Source: Flavobacteriaceae bacterium (GTDB taxonomy: Bacteria; Bacteroidota; Bacteroidia; Flavobacteriales; Flavobacteriaceae). Taken from it: DNA of 46,809 nucleotides. The notes under the pieces were generated by a model. That model did not search any database, was not told where the DNA came from, and was given only the letters and a program-made list of their open reading frames with translations. Made by a program: the position numbers and the translations under genes. Location of the stretch: the NCBI GenBank assembly GCA_018608625.1, contig JABAZC010000048.1:1-46809 (forward strand), written 5' to 3'. Positions 1-9,015 of the stretch are shown here, piece after piece; within the stretch, counting starts at the first letter, position 1; each line of letters starts with the position of its first letter.

Positions 1-417
1 AGACCAGTTAAAACAGTAGCCATTTCCACCTGCTAAAGGCCCTTTAGTATCAAACAAATAAAAGTCACAAACGGTTTCATAAGGAGTTAGTACATCAAAA
101 TTAAATTCATTTTTAATGGAAAAAACTTTGATGACCTCTACATTAAATGCTTGCAGAGATTTGCAAAACTCAGGTGTTTCTTCGCCATGCAATTGAACTG
201 CTTGCAAATTGTGAGTATTGATTTTTTCGACAATAGTATCAAAGGAAGCGTTGACAAAAACACCTACTTTTTTTATGGAAGGATAGAGGGTCGGGATCGA
301 CGCTGACACGTGACGCGAAGAGCCTTCATAAAATATAAAGCCCATATAATCAGGTTTAATCGCAGCAATCGCCTGAATATTATCGTCATATCGCATGCCA
401 CATACTTTTAGTTTCAT
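1..417 (-). CDS. trpF: Phosphoribosylanthranilate isomerase, N-terminal part (cut by window edge)
   Basis: Converts N-(5-phosphoribosyl)anthranilate to the carboxyphenylamino-deoxyribulose phosphate in cytoplasmic tryptophan synthesis. I translated the minus strand from ATG 417-415. It opens M-K-L-K-V-C-G-M, the TrpF signature in which the cysteine is the catalytic base, and continues with a TIM-barrel pattern including GFIFYEGSSRH and QLHGEE. The frame stays open for 139 codons to the window edge, so the C-terminus is missing. Its ATG overlaps the TGA of trpC (ATGA at 417-414), indicating translational coupling. The rest of the operon, presumably trpB and trpA, should lie to the left. Confidence 0.93.
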   Translation of the reverse strand, partial: MKLKVCGMRYDDNIQAIAAIKPDYMGFIFYEGSSRHVSASIPTLYPSIKKVGVFVNASFDTIVEKINTHNLQAVQLHGEETPEFCKSLQAFNVEVIKVFSIKNEFNFDVLTPYETVCDFYLFDTKGPLAGGNGYCFNWS

Positions 418-1202
418 GCGTTTAATAGATTTATAAAATCTGCTGCCGCTGCACCAGGGTTTTCTGTTTTCATAAAATTCTCACCAATTAAAAATCCTTT
501 ATAGCCATAGGGTTGTAAACTCTTAATGTCTTCCACGGTACGAATCCCACTCTCAGAAATTTTCACAAATTCGTCAGGGATGAGCCCGCTTAGAGTTCTG
601 CTCGTTTCTAAACTAACTTCAAACGTTTTAAGATTTCGATTGTTTACGCCAATCATATTGAGGGACGGCATGATTGATTTTTGTAATTCGTCCTCGTTAT
701 GAATTTCTAATAATACTTCCATTCCTAAACTTTGAGCAAGTCTTGAAAATGCTTGAATTTCGTCGCGACTCAAAATGGCAGCAATAAGTAAAATGACATC
801 GGCACCATAGGCTTTTGCTTCTACAATTTGATAAGTATCAATAATAAATTCTTTTCTAAGTAAGGGTATTTCACAACTTGCTCTTGAATTCAGTAAATCT
901 TCTAAACTCCCTCCAAAATATTTCATATCTGTTAACACGGACATTCCACAGGCTCCGGCAGTTTCATACCCTTTTGCCACGTCTTGGACGTTCAAATTTT
1001 GATTGATACAGTCCTTAGATGGTGAACGGCGTTTGTGTTCTGTTATGAGTCCTGATGTGCTATTTATTAGCCGTGTACTAAGTGATGGGGACTGGTGTTC
1101 AAATAAAACAGAGTGTTCTAGCTGCTTAATAGGAATCAGTTGTTTTCGAAGTGCGACTTCTGTGTGTTTATCAGTGACAATGCGATCTAAGATACTATTC
1201 AT
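414..1202 (-). CDS. trpC: Indole-3-glycerol phosphate synthase
   Basis: Closes the indole ring in tryptophan synthesis. The 262-residue length is normal for a monofunctional TrpC. Family motifs visible include EHKRRSPSK, with the substrate-binding lysine near residue 58, then LTDMKYFGGS, PLLRKEFIID, IGVNNRNLKTF and SESGI near the phosphate-binding end. It sits in the trp operon: the start codon overlaps the trpD stop by one base and the stop overlaps the trpF start. It is therefore probably coupled to both neighbours and controlled by the trp leader upstream of trpE. TrpC and TrpF are separate genes here, unlike the fused enterobacterial protein. Confidence 0.97.
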   Translation of the reverse strand: MNSILDRIVTDKHTEVALRKQLIPIKQLEHSVLFEHQSPSLSTRLINSTSGLITEHKRRSPSKDCINQNLNVQDVAKGYETAGACGMSVLTDMKYFGGSLEDLLNSRASCEIPLLRKEFIIDTYQIVEAKAYGADVILLIAAILSRDEIQAFSRLAQSLGMEVLLEIHNEDELQKSIMPSLNMIGVNNRNLKTFEVSLETSRTLSGLIPDEFVKISESGIRTVEDIKSLQPYGYKGFLIGENFMKTENPGAAAADFINLLNA

Positions 1203-2188
1203 TATAGGGCGATTAGTTTAGTGAGACATTTGTTTGCTTTTCCTGAGATAAGGGCTTCTTTGGCTAGTTCATATCCTTCAATATGTGTGAGCTGTTTGGC
1301 GGTTGCAATCGCTAAACCAGCATTGGCACACACTACATTATTTTGTGCTTCAGTGCCCTGTCCTCCTATAATTGTTTTAAAAATTTTGGAGGCCTCTGAA
1401 ACGGTATTTCCTCCGAAAATAGCTTCTTGGGTGTTGTTTTTTAACCCTAAATCTTCAGCTGAAAAGAGCACTTCCGATTTATTTGACACAATCTTAACCG
1501 AATTTGTTAGAGAGATTTCATCGTAGCCCCCTAGGTCATGAACAATACTGTAGTTTTTATCCGAGTCTTGATATAGGTAGGAGTAAAGCCGCAAAAGCTC
1601 TAAATTAAACACCCCTACCATTTGGTTGTTGGGAGCCGATGGGTTTACCATTGGTCCAAGCATATTAAAAAAAGTTTTAACTCCTAATTCACGTCGAATG
1701 GGTGCTACATTTTTCATCGCTGGATGAAACAAAGGCGCATGTAAAACGCAAATACCTGTAGTGGCAATGGCACGTTCTAAAAAGTCGACATCATTTGAAA
1801 AAGTTACGCCAAGCGATTCTAGTACGTTGGACGATCCACATGCAGAAGATACGCCGTAATTCCCGTGCTTAGCAACTGGTATGCCTGCGGCAGCTGTTAC
1901 AAACGAGGAAAGAGTTGAGATATTAAAGGTATCTTTGCCATCTCCACCTGTACCGCATAAATCGATGGGGTTGTAAGCCGATAAATCCACTGGAAAACAC
2001 AGTTCTAAAAGTGCATTTCTAAATCCTTTTAATTCTTCCAGGGTGACACTCCGCATCATAAAAACAGTAAGAAAAGAAGCAATTTGACTTTGGTTATAGT
2101 CCCCTTTAGAGATATTTATCAAAACCTGTTTCGCTTGATCAGCAGAAATAGTTTCATAATTAATTAGTCTATTTAAAATATGTTTCAT
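1202..2188 (-). CDS. trpD: Anthranilate phosphoribosyltransferase
   Basis: Transfers the phosphoribosyl group of PRPP to anthranilate in the cytoplasm. The 328-residue protein has the family pattern: an N-terminal helical region with a YNQSQIASFLTVFMMR segment, the PRPP/glycine-rich motif DLCGTGGDGKDTFNIST (about residues 76-92), AKHGN with the phosphate-binding residues, and ELGVKTFFNMLGPMVNP. It is a stand-alone TrpD, not fused to TrpG. It follows trpG by 18 bases and touches trpC with a one-base overlap, as expected in an operon. No key residue appears to be missing. Confidence 0.97.
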   Translation of the reverse strand: MKHILNRLINYETISADQAKQVLINISKGDYNQSQIASFLTVFMMRSVTLEELKGFRNALLELCFPVDLSAYNPIDLCGTGGDGKDTFNISTLSSFVTAAAGIPVAKHGNYGVSSACGSSNVLESLGVTFSNDVDFLERAIATTGICVLHAPLFHPAMKNVAPIRRELGVKTFFNMLGPMVNPSAPNNQMVGVFNLELLRLYSYLYQDSDKNYSIVHDLGGYDEISLTNSVKIVSNKSEVLFSAEDLGLKNNTQEAIFGGNTVSEASKIFKTIIGGQGTEAQNNVVCANAGLAIATAKQLTHIEGYELAKEALISGKANKCLTKLIAL

Positions 2189-2206
2189 TTGTTTTTTTTG
2201 ATCAAA

Positions 2207-2773
2207 TTAGGAGTTAATCCAGTTTTTTAGGAGTTGTTTTCCTTGAGGAGTGAGTACTGATTCTGGGTGAAACTGTACACCCTTCACATCATATATTTTA
2301 TGCCTCAAAGACATCACCTGTCCGTTGTTGTCAATTGAAGTAGCTTCCAAAACATCAGGTAGGTTAGCATCTACAACCCATGAATGGTATCGTCCAACCT
2401 GTAGAGTTGGTCCCAATTGATCAAATAGAATTTCGTCTTTTACCACAATAGTTACATCTGTGTGAACTCCGTGATATACCTCCTCTAAATTCACAAGTTG
2501 CCCTCCAAATACATCCCCAATAGCTTGTTGTCCTAGACATACACCTAGAATACTTTTGTTTGATGCATACCGCTTAATTACAGCATTTAATAAACCAGCT
2601 TCTTCTGGGATTCCTGGGCCTGGTGAGAGAAGTATTTTATCGAAATACTCAATATCATCTAAGTCAAACTTATCATTCCTAAGGACTGTTACTTCGCATT
2701 CTAGATCTTCTAGGTAATGCACCAGATTAAAGGTAAAGCTGTCGTAATTATCGATGACTACTATTTTTTTCAT
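2207..2773 (-). CDS. trpG: Anthranilate synthase component II (glutamine amidotransferase)
   Basis: Supplies ammonia from glutamine to TrpE for anthranilate formation. The 188-residue class I amidotransferase shows the oxyanion motif SPGPGIPEEAG, the nucleophile elbow GVCLGQQAIG with Cys79, and the C-terminal VQFHPES carrying the catalytic His and Glu. It starts two bases after the trpE stop, so the two subunits are likely translationally linked. Some organisms share this subunit with folate synthesis (PabA). The position between trpE and trpD makes a tryptophan role the main one here, although dual use cannot be excluded from sequence. Confidence 0.96.
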   Translation of the reverse strand: MKKIVVIDNYDSFTFNLVHYLEDLECEVTVLRNDKFDLDDIEYFDKILLSPGPGIPEEAGLLNAVIKRYASNKSILGVCLGQQAIGDVFGGQLVNLEEVYHGVHTDVTIVVKDEILFDQLGPTLQVGRYHSWVVDANLPDVLEATSIDNNGQVMSLRHKIYDVKGVQFHPESVLTPQGKQLLKNWINS

Positions 2774-2775
2774 AT

Positions 2776-4176
2776 TTAAATTGTTTCAGCAAGTTTAATT
2801 GCTTTTGTTAAAGCCCCTAGTTTGTTATACACTTCTTGAAGTTCATTTTCTGAACTTGATTTTGAAACGATTCCTGCGCCTGCCTGCCAATGCAGTTGAT
2901 AGTCTTTACTTAAAAAGGTGCGAATCATAATAGCATGGGTGTAATTCCCATGGAAATCCATAAATCCGATAGCCCCTCCATAAAAGGCACGGCTTGTTTT
3001 TTCGTATTTTTCAATGAGTTGCATTGCTTTATGCTTAGGTGCGCCACTAAGGGTTCCCGCTGGAAACGTATCTGCCACAATTTGCATGGTTGGTGTATTT
3101 TCTTTAACTGCTCCAATGACTTTGCTGACTAAGTGAATTACATGTGAGAAAAACTGAACTTCTCTATATTTTTCAACAACAACATCTGTGCAGTGTCGGC
3201 TCAAATCGTTTCTAGCTAGGTCTACCAGCATGACGTGCTCACTATTTTCTTTTTTATCAGCTACTAACTTCTTTGCCAGTTCAGCATCTTTCAAATCATC
3301 TCCTGTTCGCGCAAATGTACCAGCAATAGGGTGAATTTCTGCTTTTTGATTTTCTACAACAAGCTGTGCTTCCGGAGAGCTTCCAAAAATTTTGAATTTA
3401 CCGTAGTCAAAATAAAACAAGAAGGGGGAGGGGTTAATGCTTCGAAGCGCACGATACACATTAAAATCATCTCCTTTAAAATCTTGTTGAAATTTCTTTG
3501 ATAAAACCAATTGAAATACGTCACCGCGGTTGCAGTGTTTTTTAGCTAAATCGACATTAGATTTAAAGGCTTTGTCTGTTAAGTTAGAACTGATCTTTCC
3601 TTTTGATTTGAAATCATAAGAAGAAAAGCTTTGCATTTTTATCAGATGATCAATAGCCTCTATATTGCTCTCACGTTCAAAGCAATGTGCAAAGAGATAG
3701 GCCTCATTTTTGAAATGGTTAATCGCTATAATGTTCTGATAAACGGCATAATACATATCCGGAATTTCAATCGAGTGGTCTTTTTTTGAAATGGTAATAT
3801 CTTCAAAATACTTAACAGCATCATAAGCTGTAAACCCAAACATCCCATTATTGATAAACTTGAACGTTTTGTCGTTTTGAGTTTCAAATTGCTTGGTAAA
3901 GGCATCGATTTCTGCCGTCACCATATCCGATTCTACAGTCTTGGTTTCAAATGTATGGTCAGGGTATGTTTTAGTAATCAGGTTAGCTTCTACTTTTATG
4001 GAGGCTATAGGGTTGCAGCAGATGTAAGAAAAGCTATTATCATTGCCGTGGTAGTCGCTACTTTCAAGTAGAATACTATTAGGGAATTGATCTCGAATTT
4101 TTAGATACACGCTTACGGGCGATATTGTATCTGCCAGTATTTTTTTATAATGTGTTTTTAGCTTAAAATTTTTCAT
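2776..4176 (-). CDS. trpE: Anthranilate synthase component I
   Basis: Commits chorismate to tryptophan. I place the start at ATG 4176-4174 (MKNFKLKTHYKKIL, 466 residues). A longer frame back to 4227 exists, but its extra 17 codons run through the leader terminator and show no family resemblance. The feedback-site motif LLES is at residues 36-39, typical of Trp-inhibited TrpE. The chorismate-binding half contains QLVLSKKF, HPIAGTFARTGDD, HVMLVDLARND, FPAGTLSGAPKHKAM and GGAIGFMDFHGN. The start codon directly follows the U-tract of a hairpin. It is the first structural gene of the operon, ahead of trpG. Confidence 0.96.
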   Translation of the reverse strand: MKNFKLKTHYKKILADTISPVSVYLKIRDQFPNSILLESSDYHGNDNSFSYICCNPIASIKVEANLITKTYPDHTFETKTVESDMVTAEIDAFTKQFETQNDKTFKFINNGMFGFTAYDAVKYFEDITISKKDHSIEIPDMYYAVYQNIIAINHFKNEAYLFAHCFERESNIEAIDHLIKMQSFSSYDFKSKGKISSNLTDKAFKSNVDLAKKHCNRGDVFQLVLSKKFQQDFKGDDFNVYRALRSINPSPFLFYFDYGKFKIFGSSPEAQLVVENQKAEIHPIAGTFARTGDDLKDAELAKKLVADKKENSEHVMLVDLARNDLSRHCTDVVVEKYREVQFFSHVIHLVSKVIGAVKENTPTMQIVADTFPAGTLSGAPKHKAMQLIEKYEKTSRAFYGGAIGFMDFHGNYTHAIMIRTFLSKDYQLHWQAGAGIVSKSSSENELQEVYNKLGALTKAIKLAETI

Positions 4177-4208
4177 AAAAAAAAGGCTTGTCGTGAATGA
4201 CAAGCCTT
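4177..4208 (-). terminator. trp operon attenuator terminator
   Basis: Read on the minus strand this is a perfect 10-bp stem (4208-4199 with 4192-4183, arms AAGGCTTGTC and GACAAGCCTT), a 6-base loop and a run of eight T at 4184-4177. The trpE ATG follows immediately at 4176. The position between a Trp-rich leader peptide and trpE makes it an intrinsic attenuator rather than the end of another gene. A competing antiterminator is plausible: bases 4238-4229 (ACACCCTTTG) can pair with 4209-4200 (CAAGGCTTGT) at 8 of 10 positions, including one G-U pair. Confidence 0.9.
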
Positions 4209-4239
4209 GGTATTTTGATTTAAACAAACAAAGGGTGTA

Positions 4240-4296
4240 TCACGATTTGATTTTTCGAGAGTTCCACCACCAAATATTGTTTAAAGTAAAGTTCAT
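4240..4296 (-). CDS. trpL: trp operon leader peptide with three tandem Trp codons
   Basis: A short minus-strand frame, ATG 4296 to TGA 4240, encodes 18 residues: M-N-F-T-L-N-N-I-W-W-W-N-S-R-K-I-K-S. Codons 9-11 are TGG TGG TGG (4272-4264). It lies just after a good promoter and about 30 bases before the attenuator hairpin of trpE. This is the layout of a ribosome-mediated attenuator: stalling at the Trp codons under tryptophan shortage would favour the antiterminator. GGTG within the Trp codons can pair with CACC just after the stop codon, a weak candidate for the 1:2 pause hairpin. I inferred this peptide from context; conservation was not checked. Confidence 0.88.
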   Translation of the reverse strand: MNFTLNNIWWWNSRKIKS

Positions 4297-4312
4297 ATTG
4301 TTTTTATTGATT

Positions 4313-4344
4313 CAAATGTAATAACGTTTTCTTTAAATGCAAAA
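4313..4344 (-). promoter_or_regulatory. Promoter of the trp operon
   Basis: On the minus strand, TTTG (4343-4340, preceded by another T at 4344) is followed after exactly 19 bases by TACATTTG (4320-4313). This is an exact match to the Bacteroidota -33/-7 pattern TTTG-N19-TAnnTTTG. The expected start site lies about 5-8 bases downstream, giving a leader of roughly 10 bases before the leader-peptide ATG at 4296. Confidence 0.8.
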
Positions 4345-4361
4345 CAAAAAACTAATATTTT

Positions 4362-4934
4362 TTAAAATTTTAATTTTACGTTCAAATCAAATTCATCATA
4401 GATAGCTTTGTCTTTAAGCCCTTCAAAGAAACTTCCAGACTTATAACTGATGCCGTATTTAGTACGATCAATTTTAAATGAAGTTGATGCACTATTTTCA
4501 GTAAGTGCTAAATCGAAAGAAACCTCATTTGTAACTCCTTTGATAGTCATATCTCCTACTACCGTGTAGCCCGATTTGCTTTCAGTAACAGATGTAAATA
4601 CGAGTGTTGCAGTTTTGTGATTATTTACTCCAAAAAAATCATCTGCTTTCAAGTGTCCATCAAGTTTCTTTTTATAATTTCCTTGAATATCAGTCGTGTT
4701 GATAGTCGTCATGTCCATTGCAAATTTCCCGCCAACTAACGTATTTCCCTTGAAATCAAGAGATCCATTAAGTAAGTTAATAGTTCCTTCGTGTTGGCCA
4801 GTAACTTTATAGCCGACCCAGTTGATCACACTCTCAGCAACATTTATGTTTTTAGAATCATTAGTCGTGTAAGCCGATAATACTACAGCAAGTAAAACAA
4901 GTGTAGATTTTAATATTGATTTCTTTAAGTTCAT
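4362..4934 (-). CDS. YceI-family protein (lipocalin-like, predicted exported)
   Basis: The 190-residue protein has a hydrophobic N-terminus (residues 6-22) suggesting a signal peptide, then a YceI-type beta-barrel pattern: SVINWVGYKVTGQHEGTI, NTLVGGKFAMDMTTI, HLKADDFFGVNNH, VVGDMTIKGVTNEVSF and KIDRTKYGISYKSGSFF. YceI proteins bind isoprenoid or amphiphilic molecules in the periplasm; the ligand here cannot be read from sequence. It is a single gene divergent from the following redox group, with its own -7 box. It ends only about 20 bases from the trp promoter region and is not part of the trp operon. Confidence 0.88.
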   Translation of the reverse strand: MNLKKSILKSTLVLLAVVLSAYTTNDSKNINVAESVINWVGYKVTGQHEGTINLLNGSLDFKGNTLVGGKFAMDMTTINTTDIQGNYKKKLDGHLKADDFFGVNNHKTATLVFTSVTESKSGYTVVGDMTIKGVTNEVSFDLALTENSASTSFKIDRTKYGISYKSGSFFEGLKDKAIYDEFDLNVKLKF

Positions 4935-4957
4935 GATTAATTTTTAAAATTCAATTA

Positions 4958-4965
4958 CAAATATA
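4958..4965 (-). promoter_or_regulatory. -7 box upstream of the YceI-like gene
   Basis: TATATTTG on the minus strand matches TAnnTTTG exactly and lies 23 bases before the ATG at 4934. No clear TTG box is present about 19 bases further upstream, so only the -7 element is supported. Confidence 0.5.
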
Positions 4966-5054
4966 GATTTTTTTATATTTTTAAGGCCATATGTCCCTTA
5001 ATAATTTTCTGTTAATTTTTTAGGCTACTCAGTGAGTTTTTTTAACTTTATCGG

Positions 5055-5564
5055 ATGAAATATCTTTTTATTTTAGTTGTTTCCTGTTTTTTATCTTGCA
5101 AGTCAGAGGTCAAAACTGAGGTCAAGCTTACAGCGAACTTACCTCCTTTGGAAATTCATGATTTCTCAGGCGTTGAGCCGTATTTAAACCTAGAGGGACC
5201 TAAAACTTATGTTGTTAATTTTTGGGCTACATGGTGTGCTCCCTGCGTAAAAGAGTTGCCGTATTTTGAGGCTATACAAGCCAAATATATTGAAGATGTT
5301 GAGGTTATTTTGATTAGCTTGGATTTCCCACGTCAATATGAATCCAAATTAAAACCTTTTTTATATAAACACCAATTGAAGTCCAAGGTAGTTGTTTTAG
5401 ATGATCCCGACATGAATTATTGGATTCCAAAGGTGGATAGTAACTGGGATGGAGCCATTCCGGTATCACTTATTTATAACAGTTCAAAACGAAGCTTTTA
5501 TAAGCGTACCTTTGCTTATAACGAGTTAGAAGCAGAGCTCAAGACTTTTTTAACCACTAAATAA
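5055..5564 (+). CDS. TlpA/ResA-type thioredoxin lipoprotein
   Basis: A 169-residue membrane-anchored thiol-disulfide protein. The N-terminus ends in a lipobox (F-L-S-C, Cys15), suggesting attachment in the cell envelope. The thioredoxin fold carries FWATWCAPCVKELPYF, with active-site Cys61 and Cys64, and later a cis-proline region at AIPVSLIY. Such proteins usually reduce or oxidise envelope thiols, for example in cytochrome c maturation, but no cytochrome gene is nearby. It is the first of four same-strand genes; the next starts six bases after its stop, and together they form a probable redox/sulfur operon. Confidence 0.88.
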   Translation: MKYLFILVVSCFLSCKSEVKTEVKLTANLPPLEIHDFSGVEPYLNLEGPKTYVVNFWATWCAPCVKELPYFEAIQAKYIEDVEVILISLDFPRQYESKLKPFLYKHQLKSKVVVLDDPDMNYWIPKVDSNWDGAIPVSLIYNSSKRSFYKRTFAYNELEAELKTFLTTK

Positions 5565-5570
5565 AACCTA

Positions 5571-6170
5571 ATGAATGTAATTTATAGCTTATTGATCTTC
5601 TTTGCCGCAGTATTAACAACTGATTCGGTTGATAATGGGTATGACATTGGAGACATAGCAACCGACTTTAATCTTGAAAATATTGATGGTAAATTTGTAT
5701 CGCTTTCCGATTTTAACGATGCTAAAGGGTTTATAATTGTGTTCACTTGTAACACTTGTCCTTACGCGGTTTTGTATGAAGATCGCATTGAAGCACTTAA
5801 TAAAAAATATGCATCACAAGGCTACCCATTGATAGCTATTATGCCTAACAATGTGCAAACAAAGCCAGGCGATTCAATGAAATCAATGAAGCAAAGAGCC
5901 ATTGATAAAGGGTTTACATTCCCGTATTTAATGGATGCTGGTCAAAAAATATATCCTCAATATGGAGCTACAAAAACACCTCATGTATACATTTTAGAAT
6001 CCACGACCCGTGGGCCAGTAGTCAGGTATATTGGTGGGATAGACGACAATTACAAAGATGCCACTTTAGTGAAAACAAATTATGTTGAAGATGCGATTGA
6101 AGCGCTTAAGAAAGGCAATTTAATTAAGCAAACGACAACTAAAGCGATAGGCTGTTCTATCAAATTATAA
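5571..6170 (+). CDS. Exported redoxin (AhpC/TSA-like thioredoxin-fold protein)
   Basis: A 199-residue protein with a short hydrophobic start (IYSLLIFFAAVLTT), likely a signal peptide, followed by a peroxiredoxin-like domain: DIATDFNLENIDG, VSLSDFNDAKGFIIVF, then the CxxC site C-N-T-C (Cys60 and Cys63) before PYAVLYEDRIEAL. The C-N-T-C/P-Y pattern is common in bacterial redoxin-domain proteins of unknown substrate, and TKTPHVYIL carries the cis-proline. It follows the TlpA-like gene by six bases and precedes a rhodanese gene. A thiol oxidoreductase role in the envelope is likely; peroxidase activity is not established. Confidence 0.83.
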   Translation: MNVIYSLLIFFAAVLTTDSVDNGYDIGDIATDFNLENIDGKFVSLSDFNDAKGFIIVFTCNTCPYAVLYEDRIEALNKKYASQGYPLIAIMPNNVQTKPGDSMKSMKQRAIDKGFTFPYLMDAGQKIYPQYGATKTPHVYILESTTRGPVVRYIGGIDDNYKDATLVKTNYVEDAIEALKKGNLIKQTTTKAIGCSIKL

Positions 6171-6204
6171 CCTCAAATTAGTATTTAATTTAATAAAATA
6201 TTTT

Positions 6205-6519
6205 ATGATTGAATTATCACAAAAAGATTGGTCCTCTCAGTTGGAAGCCGATTCAGAATCAGTTATTATGGATGTTCGCACCCAAGAAGAGGTGGAGGAA
6301 GGAATGATCCCTGAAGCGCTTCACATGGATATATATAATGGACAAAAGTTTATCTCAAGTCTTGAGAAGCTTGATAAATCCTTAGGCTATTATGTGTATT
6401 GCAGGTCTGGAAATCGAAGTGCTCAAGCCTGTTCCATTATGGGCCAATTGGGTTTTAAGTCGACGTTTAATCTAGTTGGAGGCTTTTTAGGATGGACCGG
6501 CCCTTTCGTGACGCCTTAA
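6205..6519 (+). CDS. Single-domain rhodanese, cytoplasmic
   Basis: A 104-residue protein made of one rhodanese domain: VIMDVRTQEEVEEGMIPEAL, then the active-site loop Y-C-R-S-G-N-R-S with Cys66 as the predicted persulfide-carrying residue, and a closing LVGGFLGWTGP. No signal peptide is visible, so it probably acts in the cytoplasm. Rhodaneses move sulfane sulfur to acceptors such as cyanide, thiols or proteins; the acceptor is unknown here. A second rhodanese, this one a lipoprotein, starts two bases after its stop, which suggests a cytoplasm/envelope pair. Confidence 0.88.
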   Translation: MIELSQKDWSSQLEADSESVIMDVRTQEEVEEGMIPEALHMDIYNGQKFISSLEKLDKSLGYYVYCRSGNRSAQACSIMGQLGFKSTFNLVGGFLGWTGPFVTP

Positions 6520-6521
6520 TT

Positions 6522-6914
6522 ATGGGTTTTAGTAAGCTAGGTTATTTCTTTTTAATAGTGATCAGCTTTTTAAGCTGTAAAAGTGGTGACTTTAATTCCG
6601 TACAGCTTATTACCAATGATGAATTTGAAAGAGTTTCTAAAATTAATGGCATTCAGCTGGTTGATGTTAGAACGGCTGAGGAGTACGCAGAAGGGCATAT
6701 TTTAAATTCTATAAACATTGATTTTCTAGGTCCTAATTTCGAATTTGACATCAAAAAATTAGATAAAAACTCTCCCATTATTGTGTACTGTCAACGGGGT
6801 AGTAGAAGCGCTAAGAGCGCTTTAAAACTACGTTCCAATTCCTTTGTAAAAGTCTATGACTTAGAAGGAGGTTTTTATAAATGGTTGTCTAATGGGGGGA
6901 GTGTTAAAAAGTAA
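6522..6914 (+). CDS. Rhodanese-domain lipoprotein
   Basis: I place the start at ATG 6522 (MGFSKLGYFFLIVISFLSC), two bases after the previous stop. A longer frame from 6492 would overlap the upstream rhodanese and spoil the signal peptide. The 130-residue product has a lipobox with Cys19, then one rhodanese domain with LVDVRTAEEYAEGHI and active loop Y-C-Q-R-G-S-R-S (Cys90), closing with LEGGFYKWLSNGG. It is predicted to sit in the cell envelope. It ends the four-gene redox group and its stop lies 10 bases from the convergent nucleotidyltransferase gene. Confidence 0.87.
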   Translation: MGFSKLGYFFLIVISFLSCKSGDFNSVQLITNDEFERVSKINGIQLVDVRTAEEYAEGHILNSINIDFLGPNFEFDIKKLDKNSPIIVYCQRGSRSAKSALKLRSNSFVKVYDLEGGFYKWLSNGGSVKK

Positions 6915-6924
6915 TATAGTTAAT

Positions 6925-7809
6925 TTAAGCCCACAACGGAGTTGAGTAGGCACCTTGGTTGGTAAGCTCAGCAAGTGTTGTAACAGCCAGTTCTTTGTCA
7001 TCGTAATAAGTCACTCCAAACCAGTTGCTTTTGGCTTCAATAACTTCAACAGTTATATGTCCGTTTTCCATCATTTCTTGAGTCACAAAAGGCAAGTAAA
7101 TTTCGCTTTTTTCAAGGTTATCAGGGTTTTCTAAAAACTTTTTAAAGTAAGCTTCGATATAATTAAATATGGACGCATTACAAATCCAGAAATTCATAGA
7201 TACAGCTGAGTTGGGATCAAGAATTACTCCCGAGTCTTCATCAATAATTTGTGTATTTTTTTCTAAGATTTTAGTCCGCTCTATAATTGATTTTAAACGC
7301 TTGTTTTCTACTTTACAAACGCCTCTAGAAACAGATCCAAATTCAGAAAGAGTATTTTTAAGGCTATATGCTACAAGGGCGAAATTAGAAGAGGATTGAT
7401 TGTTTTTCATGAATTCAGCCGCCCCTTGAAAAGCATTTTGACCATAATAATCATCCGCATTTATAATTACAAAATCTCCTGAAATAACATTTCTAGCGGT
7501 CCAAACAGCATGGGCAGTTCCCCATGGTTTTTCGCGCTCTGTTATTAACGAAACTCCTTTTGGAATGTCTTTTATGTCCTGAACTAAGACATCTAGTTTT
7601 ACGTTGCCAGGAAGACGTTCTGAAAGATAAGTTTCTAAGAATGTTTTGTTAGCTGATTTGGTAATAACTACAATGTGATTAAAGTTATTTTTTAGTGCAT
7701 CAGAAATACTAAACTCCATTAGGAATTCTTTTGCTGGACCTAAATCGTCAAATTGTTTTAATTTTCCATAGCGACTACCGCTTCCAGCAGCCATAAGTAA
7801 TAGGGTCAT
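6925..7809 (-). CDS. Sugar-phosphate-type nucleotidyltransferase
   Basis: A 294-residue protein starting with the nucleotidyltransferase signature LLLMAAGSGSRYGKLKQF, which contains the G-x-G-x-R phosphate-binding loop. This is followed by a Rossmann-like pattern with PWGTAHAVW and FVIINADDYYG, where the metal-binding Asp residues are expected. These enzymes join NTP and a sugar phosphate. The exact sugar cannot be read, and the family in Bacteroidota is usually annotated only as nucleotidyltransferase. It is a single minus-strand gene between two plus-strand units, with its own -7 box upstream, so it is probably transcribed alone. Confidence 0.82.
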   Translation of the reverse strand: MTLLLMAAGSGSRYGKLKQFDDLGPAKEFLMEFSISDALKNNFNHIVVITKSANKTFLETYLSERLPGNVKLDVLVQDIKDIPKGVSLITEREKPWGTAHAVWTARNVISGDFVIINADDYYGQNAFQGAAEFMKNNQSSSNFALVAYSLKNTLSEFGSVSRGVCKVENKRLKSIIERTKILEKNTQIIDEDSGVILDPNSAVSMNFWICNASIFNYIEAYFKKFLENPDNLEKSEIYLPFVTQEMMENGHITVEVIEAKSNWFGVTYYDDKELAVTTLAELTNQGAYSTPLWA

Positions 7810-7831
7810 GTTTTATAAGATTTGTTCAATG

Positions 7832-7839
7832 CAAAAATA
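7832..7839 (-). promoter_or_regulatory. -7 box upstream of the nucleotidyltransferase gene
   Basis: TATTTTTG on the minus strand is an exact TAnnTTTG match located 22 bases before the ATG at 7809. The expected upstream TTG box is weak. Confidence 0.45.
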
Positions 7840-7888
7840 TAATATTTATACGGAAGTTAAAATTTATAATTACTCAACTATTTTGATA

Positions 7889-7922
7889 TTTGTTTCTACA
7901 TCAATTATAAATCGTAATTTTG
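7889..7922 (+). promoter_or_regulatory. Probable promoter of the secreted endonuclease gene
   Basis: TTTG (7889-7892) is followed after 22 bases by TAATTTTG (7915-7922), a TAnnTTTG match. The spacing is slightly longer than the usual 19-20. The gene starts at 7951, leaving a leader of about 20 bases. Confidence 0.45.
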
Positions 7923-7950
7923 TTTGTGATAAATCAAATTTTAAGCTCAG

Positions 7951-9015
7951 ATGATGATAAAATATTTAACAGCCTTGGCTACATGTTTTCTTTTGGCTCC
8001 CTTTATGTTGGTTGCTCAAATACCTCAGTATTATTCAAATGTTGATTTTAATTTAGCAGGGGATGGCCTAAAAGTAGAACTTTCTAGTTTGTTATTAGAC
8101 ACACATACAAACCTAATCCCTTATACTTCCTCTAATACAGATACTTGGGATGTTTTAAGAATTAGCGATTTAGTGGAAGCTAACTCCAGTAATGTCTTGT
8201 TGATTTATGGCTATGATGATTCTGATAGCTCAACCAATAATGATCGTACTCGAGATATTTACTCCAATCAAAGCAGCAATTGTATAGGCTATTGGAACAG
8301 AGAGCATGTTTTTGCTAAAAGTCTAGCTAACCCAAGTTTAGTTACAAACCAACCAGGTCCAGGAACAGATGTTCATAATCTGAGAGCTGCTGATTGTCAG
8401 ATGAATTCTTCTCGAAATAATCGTCTTTTTGTTAGTGGGTCAGGCAACTCTGGCATTTCAGGAAGTTACTTTTATCCTGGAGATGAGTTTAAAGGGGATG
8501 TGGCCAGAATTATAATGTATATGTATTTACGTTATCCTTCACAATGTGAGCCATTAAATATAGGGGTTGGAAGTTCTTCTTACTCAACAAACGGGGACAT
8601 GCCAAATGTGTTTCTAGATTGGAATGAGGAAGACCCTGTATCTGACTTTGAGCGCAACAGAAATGATGTTATATACTCATATCAAGGAAATAGGAATCCT
8701 TTTATTGACAACCCCTATTTAGCTTTTAAAATATGGAATGGTCCAGTTCCCTTAGATTCTTGGGGTGTCTTGTCGTCATCTGATTTGTTAACTCAAACTG
8801 TATCAGTATTTCCAACAATCACTAACGATTATTTATATATCAAAGGAACTAATCCCTCACAGAGATCAGTCAAAATATTTAATCAATTAGGACAGGTTTT
8901 AGAATTTGAACTCAATGGAGATAAAATTGATGTTTCGGGACTTCCTAAGGGATTGTATATTATTAACATTAAAGTCTCGAGCCAATCAAAATTATTTAAA
9001 TTTTTAGTATATTAA
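7951..9015 (+). CDS. Secreted endonuclease I (NucM/EndA type) with type IX sorting tail
   Basis: A 354-residue exported DNA/RNA nuclease. Residues 1-22 form a signal peptide ending in LVAQ. The endonuclease I domain carries the catalytic region WNREHVFAKS, then DVHNLRAADCQMNSSRNN, with the His-Asn residues of the beta-beta-alpha metal fold. The last ~75 residues (from SVFPTITNDYLYI to LFKFLVY) match a type A Por/T9SS C-terminal sorting domain, so the enzyme is probably released or surface-anchored through the T9SS. A role in acquiring phosphate or nucleotides from environmental DNA is likely. ATG 7954 is an alternative start. A small repeat protein follows after four bases. Confidence 0.9.
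   Translation: MMIKYLTALATCFLLAPFMLVAQIPQYYSNVDFNLAGDGLKVELSSLLLDTHTNLIPYTSSNTDTWDVLRISDLVEANSSNVLLIYGYDDSDSSTNNDRTRDIYSNQSSNCIGYWNREHVFAKSLANPSLVTNQPGPGTDVHNLRAADCQMNSSRNNRLFVSGSGNSGISGSYFYPGDEFKGDVARIIMYMYLRYPSQCEPLNIGVGSSSYSTNGDMPNVFLDWNEEDPVSDFERNRNDVIYSYQGNRNPFIDNPYLAFKIWNGPVPLDSWGVLSSSDLLTQTVSVFPTITNDYLYIKGTNPSQRSVKIFNQLGQVLEFELNGDKIDVSGLPKGLYIINIKVSSQSKLFKFLVY

Follow-up and report, generated by a model that had tools for sequence, protein, structure and literature searches.

The region upstream of trpE analysed here (positions 4177-4344) raises the question of whether a member of the Flavobacteriaceae governs its trp operon by ribosome-mediated attenuation and, if so, which strands of the leader RNA would make up the switch. 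The region lies in a window (i.e. the whole stretch of DNA that was analysed) of 46,809 nt. The trpL leader of Escherichia coli combines tandem Trp codons with a 1:2, 2:3, 3:4 pairing logic, and a preliminary description of the window had proposed the same layout.

The operon is encoded on the minus strand, in the order promoter, leader, terminator and trpE-G-D-C-F. For trpE (2776..4176, ATG 4176-4174) the best NCBIfam match, TIGR00564, scored 413.9 bits, below its cut-off of 517.7, and the assignment draws on the operon context. It is followed by genes for a trpG-like glutamine amidotransferase (2207..2773; TIGR00566, 179.1 bits, cut-off 121.05), trpD (1202..2188; TIGR01245, 304.7 bits, cut-off 199.05) and trpC (414..1202; NF001377, 286.8 bits, cut-off 260). 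An open ORF at 1..417, which runs off the contig end, is presumably the 5′ part of trpF, judging from its sequence and place. The same genome encodes a second TrpE-like protein, 29% identical (G000:C2:44611-45693; locus L002).

Upstream of the leader, and downstream of a yceI-like gene (4934-4362, minus strand), a TTG at 4342-4340 was read directly; with its consensus spacing, we take it to be the −33 element of a flavobacterial promoter. A 19-nt spacer separates it from the −7 box, TACATTTG (4320-4313). The latter fits TAnnTTTG, the flavobacterial −7 box described for Flavobacterium psychrophilum in excerpts of PMC9723704, so that the exact promoter match claimed earlier is correct for a promoter of this type. 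A sigma-70 promoter scan listed nothing at the trp leader. Of 159 leaders (the 166 described below minus seven that were dropped), 143 carry TAnnTTTG no more than 60 nt ahead of the leader ATG, vs 202 of 3180 shuffled sequences.

The leader ORF (4240..4296, minus strand; ATG 4296, stop TGA 4242-4240) has 18 codons plus TGA, MNFTLNNIWWWNSRKIKS, and includes three tandem Trp codons, TGGTGGTGG, at 4264..4272. Next comes a hairpin, found both by a terminator scan and in the fold, with a 10-bp stem (4208-4199 with 4192-4183), a 6-nt loop (4198-4193) and eight T (4184-4177), the first two of which also belong to the stem; the trpE ATG starts six bases past the stem. Direct reading thus bore out the 18-residue peptide with three tandem TGG codons and the 10-bp stem with eight T directly before the trpE ATG, both as first described. 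That trpE starts directly after the terminator was observed in the window (4183-4174) and in 16 close relatives, and the hairpin could also affect translation there.

Upstream regions of trpE were collected from related genomes. A first set of 141 regions comprised the best trpE matches plus a genome scan, with close relatives over-represented; L002 (a paralogue), L035 and L048 (no upstream DNA) were dropped before counting. An ATG-started short Trp-rich frame was present in 134 of the 141, which derive from Flavobacteriaceae and a few relatives. As to the remaining seven, Trp codons follow a TTG in L022, L067, L073 and L085, WWW is present in L116, L017 is truncated by the contig end, and no Trp leader was found within the trpE upstream region read for L007 (genome G209). 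When 40 regions from across the class were included, an automatic rule found leader plus terminator in 166 of 181; one of these, L138, is an upstream site picked in error and stays in the 166 and in the switch, offset and masking counts given below. It is apparent that tandem Trp codons are kept at the same place in related genomes, as the earlier reading would predict. Outside the Trp run, the residues of the leader peptide differ from genus to genus.

Three terminator finders lost 11 of 141, 22 of 181 and 15 of 181 regions, respectively. The last 15 were L007, L017, L125, L188, L195, L196, L197, L198, L203, L216, L217, L219, L220, L224 and L225. By eye, WWW and a hairpin are present in L125, L203 and L219; L017 is the truncated region noted above, L198 is short, and L195 and L197 have a single-Trp frame. 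In L195 and L197 this leader-like frame and a hairpin precede trpE, which may point to an attenuator that has decayed or been retuned. Spaced Trp codons (TGG-x-TGG, e.g. TGGCGTTGG) occur instead of tandem ones in L189-L192, L202 and L186.

The leader RNA is more stable than its shuffled counterparts. For 4300-4177 the z score was −4.9 and for 4237-4177 it was −4.8, with 0/200 shuffles as good in either case; a longer piece, 4303-4173, gave −3.6 (1/200). A simple terminator scan of positions 1-9000 revealed no overall excess of hairpins (five found vs 5.3 in shuffles), and the weight therefore rests on conservation. In the minimum free energy (MFE) fold, the 5′ strand of a 1:2 helix (4277..4285, minus strand) pairs with 4227-4219, and the inner part of the helix joins 4271-4265 to 4237-4232. 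In a set of 30 diverse leaders (26 of the 28 detected class-level leaders plus L060, L062, L057 and L001), the 1:2 helix (up5:mid) preferred its own partner in that none of 5000 permutations was as good. Further pairings with such self-preference are considered below. It might be argued that the hairpin merely serves as an ordinary, constitutive terminator for the yceI-like gene, which ends on the same strand just 19 nt before the −33 TTG, and that the short ORF arose by chance. However, Trp codons, spacing, the strand termed X below and the hairpin are conserved before trpE across genera, and the helices pair preferentially with their own partners. A constitutive terminator is thus extremely unlikely.

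Attenuation demands an antiterminator, and the strand best placed to serve as one is a segment with the core UCGUGA, X (4240..4245, minus strand), which contains the leader stop codon. X pairs with 4196-4191, which spans loop bases of the terminator and the first bases of its right arm. In the ribosome-free MFE fold it pairs instead with P, a segment just past the Trp codons (4255..4260, minus strand). The hexamer TCGTGA after the Trp codons was exact in 120 of 130 leaders examined. Between the last TGG and TCGTGA there are 18 nt in 88 leaders, 19 in 27, 17 in one, 21 in two and 22 in two, so that 115 of the 120 leaders with the motif have a gap of 18 or 19 nt. The end of the leader stop codon coincides with that of the hexamer in 68 leaders, lies 5 nt after it in 27, 9 nt before it in 21 and elsewhere in four, the extremes being 14 nt before and 5 nt after. 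As the gap is fixed despite a moving stop, TCGTGA is a nucleotide motif placed by the Trp codons and not by the reading frame.

The pairing of X with the terminator apex (X:apex) was analysed in an alignment of 139 sequences, reduced to 136 distinct ones. Pairs were possible in 877 of 922 cells, compared with 13-46% in slid registers. In a block permutation, 0/2000 were as good, and the gain was small (mean 862, sd 3.4) because close sequences are alike. Cells changed on both sides numbered six among these 136 close sequences, no more than the 1-6 in slid registers; the close set therefore provides conservation and block preference, and not many compensatory changes. One such two-sided change, UCGUAA with UUACGA, is found in L136. 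Both X partners also differ in L057-L059 (GUCGC with GCGAC), which are not lined up in this alignment. Counting against the pairing, the loops of L034 and L037-L039 read TAACGA, at the cost of one X pair. In the 30 diverse leaders, self-pairing of X:apex was stronger than permuted pairing, at −14.2 vs −10.5 kcal/mol, with 0/5000 permutations as good; the control, P:apex, displayed no self-preference (862/5000). Weak self-preference was also seen for X:up5 (61/5000) and mid:arm3 (76/5000). For individual leaders, the X:apex self-pairing ranked anywhere from 1 to 28 of 30, and some are without self-preference.

To follow the predicted switch, partial transcripts were folded with 5 nt of the terminator right arm made, in three states. 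The ribosome was represented by covering the RNA up to a point 15 nt downstream of a codon's first base. This codon was a late Trp codon in the stalled state (in the window, the middle one of the three) and the stop codon in the stop state; the third state had no ribosome. A leader was scored as a switch by a strict rule, namely a terminator probability, P(term), below 0.2 when stalled and above 0.8 in the stop state. The rule was passed by 132 of 134 close (Flavobacteriaceae-type) leaders and 27 of 32 distant ones. Controls passed far less often: with shuffled spacers, 21/402 (close) and 8/96 (distant), and for chimeras, 33/123. With 6 nt of right arm the counts drop to 128/134 and 21/32. Without a ribosome, P(term) exceeded 0.8 in only 96/134 close and 16/32 distant leaders at 5 nt, and in 124/134 and 26/32 at 6 nt. 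Over footprint offsets of 10-18 nt, the stalled value was below 0.2 in 124-133 of 134 close and 24-29 of 32 distant leaders, and the stop-state value above 0.8 in 128-133 of 133 and 26-31 of 32, respectively.

The stalled fold of the window, obtained with 4255 and all upstream positions covered and only part of the right arm transcribed, is a single hairpin, the antiterminator (4191..4245, minus strand); 4245-4222 and 4215-4191 form 19 pairs at −12.5 kcal/mol. In the folding models, this mutually exclusive antiterminator was available only with a ribosome waiting at the Trp codons. When leader pieces were folded without the right arm, the antiterminators obtained were weak (−4.6 to −6.1 kcal/mol, z near 0), and a strong one emerged once the loop and first right-arm bases were included. 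With the right arm complete, the terminator was thermodynamically favoured even in the stalled state in the 12/12 leaders tabled; the switch must therefore be kinetic.

The antiterminator strand had previously been placed at 4229..4238 (minus strand), in the middle of the same helix, with 8 of 10 bases said to pair with the terminator's left arm. The count stands only if an internal loop is allowed: eight of the ten bases of 4238-4229 pair in the folded antiterminator, with 4209-4205 and 4202-4200 as partners, and an ungapped pairing fails, with three of ten in the claimed register and seven in the best nearby one. Nor is this segment the decisive strand, since masking points to 4246-4239, at the stop codon. 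In the stalled state of the window, P(term) rose from 0.001 to 0.978 with 4246-4239 masked and from 0.001 to 0.151 with 4237-4228 masked; the earlier segment is accordingly the less critical one in the model. Among close leaders (n=134), stalled P(term) exceeded 0.5 in one when intact, 130 with X (8 nt) masked and eight with the next ten bases, approximately the earlier segment, masked; the corresponding numbers for distant leaders (n=32) were two, 22 and 12. X is thus probably the main antiterminator strand.

A different role for X would be a loop-loop contact that supports termination, and four of the six X:apex pairs in the window do use loop bases. This is unlikely, given that stalled folds touch the left arm in 133/134 close and 32/32 distant leaders, a contact that excludes a formed terminator. 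The stalled helix touches both the left arm and the loop or right arm in 130/134 close and 23/32 distant leaders, the left arm only in three and nine, respectively, and the loop or right arm alone in none. A second proposal is that translation is the main target of the hairpin in this genus, the trpE initiation region being hidden until X frees it. The distance from the stem end to the trpE start (ATG included) is indeed 8-10 nt in the window and the 16 close relatives listed, a list that leaves out L033, compared with 8 to 267 nt over 165 regions. The stem is, however, followed by a U-run typical of an intrinsic terminator, and most other genera keep the same switch with the trpE start further off. 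A mainly translational hairpin therefore has only a small chance of being the right explanation.

Taken together, the conserved leader and terminator, the self-preferring helices and the folding switch support the E. coli-type layout first proposed, and sequence and folding models make it very probable that the trp operon is controlled here by ribosome-mediated attenuation of transcription. When charged tRNA-Trp is plentiful, a ribosome would pass WWW, reach the stop codon and cover X (4245-4240); the 3:4 terminator would then form and transcription would stop just before trpE. When tRNA-Trp is scarce, the ribosome would wait on WWW, where it covers P together with the 5′ strand of helix 1:2 but not X. 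The loop and first right-arm bases, as they emerge, would be captured by X, and pairing would continue along the left arm and the sequence flanking it to give a single long, imperfect hairpin; the terminator would thus be missed and trpE-G-D-C-F transcribed. Without a ribosome, 1:2, P:X and 3:4 would form, giving basal termination. Transcription would thus be expected to stop at the trp hairpin in response to tryptophan, and translation presumably runs close enough behind RNA polymerase at the trp leader.

The mechanism predicts that a distinct leader RNA, about 130 nt long, is produced, and the terminated RNA or the peptide might also act in trans, as described for peTrpL of Sinorhizobium meliloti in excerpts of PMC7298713. 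Peptide residues outside the Trp run are, however, variable among genera, as noted above, and no result of this analysis points to targets; such an added function is very unlikely.

It was of interest to compare the leader with known systems. In the folding test E. coli trpL passed through the same three states with 5 nt of right arm, and from 6 nt on its terminator was favoured even in the stalled state. The flavobacterial leader differs from it in that the stop codon lies within the antiterminator strand and the helix crosses the loop into the right arm, whereas in the fold the E. coli antiterminator helix ends at the left arm; the promoter, moreover, is of flavobacterial type. The Rfam model for the E. 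coli-type leader, RF00513 (Trp_leader), gave 21.8 bits, below its cut-off of 41. At gathering score, Rfam matches in the whole window were two tRNAs only, with no leader match and no T-box. With an E-value threshold, and only then, a match to RF01692 (Bacteroid-trp) was found, at 43.1 bits (cut-off 49; E 0.0003-0.0007). The window aligns with it at full length (model 1-131), several pairs being non-standard, and shares its Trp codons, 1:2 helix, conserved AAGGCUUGUC end and Bacteroidetes origin. The Rfam consensus, by contrast, stops inside the terminator, at AAGGCUUGUC, and is without terminator or antiterminator pairing. Its cut-off was passed by 7/20 loci searched and by 0/7 class-level loci (L199, L200, L210, L214, L218, L221 and L222); four close relatives were also scanned, and of these L044 alone exceeds it (55.2 bits), L003, L032 and L038 falling short. 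Among 14 named control genomes, a match was obtained only in Bacteroides ihuae.

The preliminary description had supposed that little direct experimental work existed in this lineage. No paper measuring trp attenuation in Bacteroidota was recognised among the matches listed, surveys cited in PMC4833913 being outside the scope of the search. The element itself is both catalogued and noted in print. Bacteroid-trp is listed as a cis-regulatory RNA of Bacteroidetes in excerpts of Weinberg et al. 2010 (PMC2864571), and extracts of a 2019 paper (PMC6414381) state in discussion that this element is maintained upstream of the F. psychrophilum trp genes, and compare it with E. coli. For the same species, portions of PMC9723704 report strong clues for leader-peptide attenuation before amino-acid operons, trp being unnamed in the main text, and list structured elements before pheA and hisG. 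The kind of attenuator is therefore already known; the full switch as described here was not found in the literature searched.

Leaders of other amino-acid operons were also inspected. A His-codon leader precedes hisG in the genome of the window (L161; G000:C90 near 42108) and in L145-L160 and L162. Those of the same genus (L161, L147-L157, L159 and L160) resemble the trp leader in having tandem His codons followed by a strand at the leader stop, and differ from it in that the His strand, UCAAGCGAGG, pairs with the terminator left arm. In these 14, stalled P(term) was 0.01 or less in 14/14, and the strict rule was passed by 5/14. The values for all hisG leaders folded were 16/18 and 6/18, respectively; L158 and L162, from the same order, displayed no switch. 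In the ribosome-free state the hisG terminator was mostly absent at 5 nt. Upstream of ilvD the automatic rule listed a hairpin in 1/21 loci (L170), and L183 has one by eye; short Ile/Leu/Val-rich frames (MRVNNVILSIIILLCQL and MNLIIDTLLITVLLLLVVPVVR) precede these terminator-like hairpins, and L170 and L183 are possible branched-chain attenuators. The hisG and ilvD leaders are leads.

We lean, by a narrow margin, towards the view that Trp attenuators of the class Bacteroidia, and perhaps his and ilv ones too, share one plan, absent from the entries consulted, in which the antiterminator strand overlaps the leader stop codon, so that a terminating ribosome hides it, and grips the terminator apex (left arm plus loop or right arm in most lineages, left arm only in some). 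In Flavobacteriaceae this strand lies 18-19 nt after the Trp codons. Our confidence in the class-wide plan was lowered slightly because only 6/18 his leaders pass the strict rule.

In the phylum Bacteroidota, translation is initiated largely without Shine-Dalgarno pairing. If the shared plan is real, its maintenance throughout the class would imply that RNA polymerase is closely trailed by ribosomes in such a phylum. The Rfam model could gain a terminator and an antiterminator and reach beyond Flavobacteriaceae. The present analysis develops a catalogued RNA motif into a complete switch model, in which each strand has a name and an effect to be expected, and makes transcription-translation coupling in Bacteroidota a testable question.
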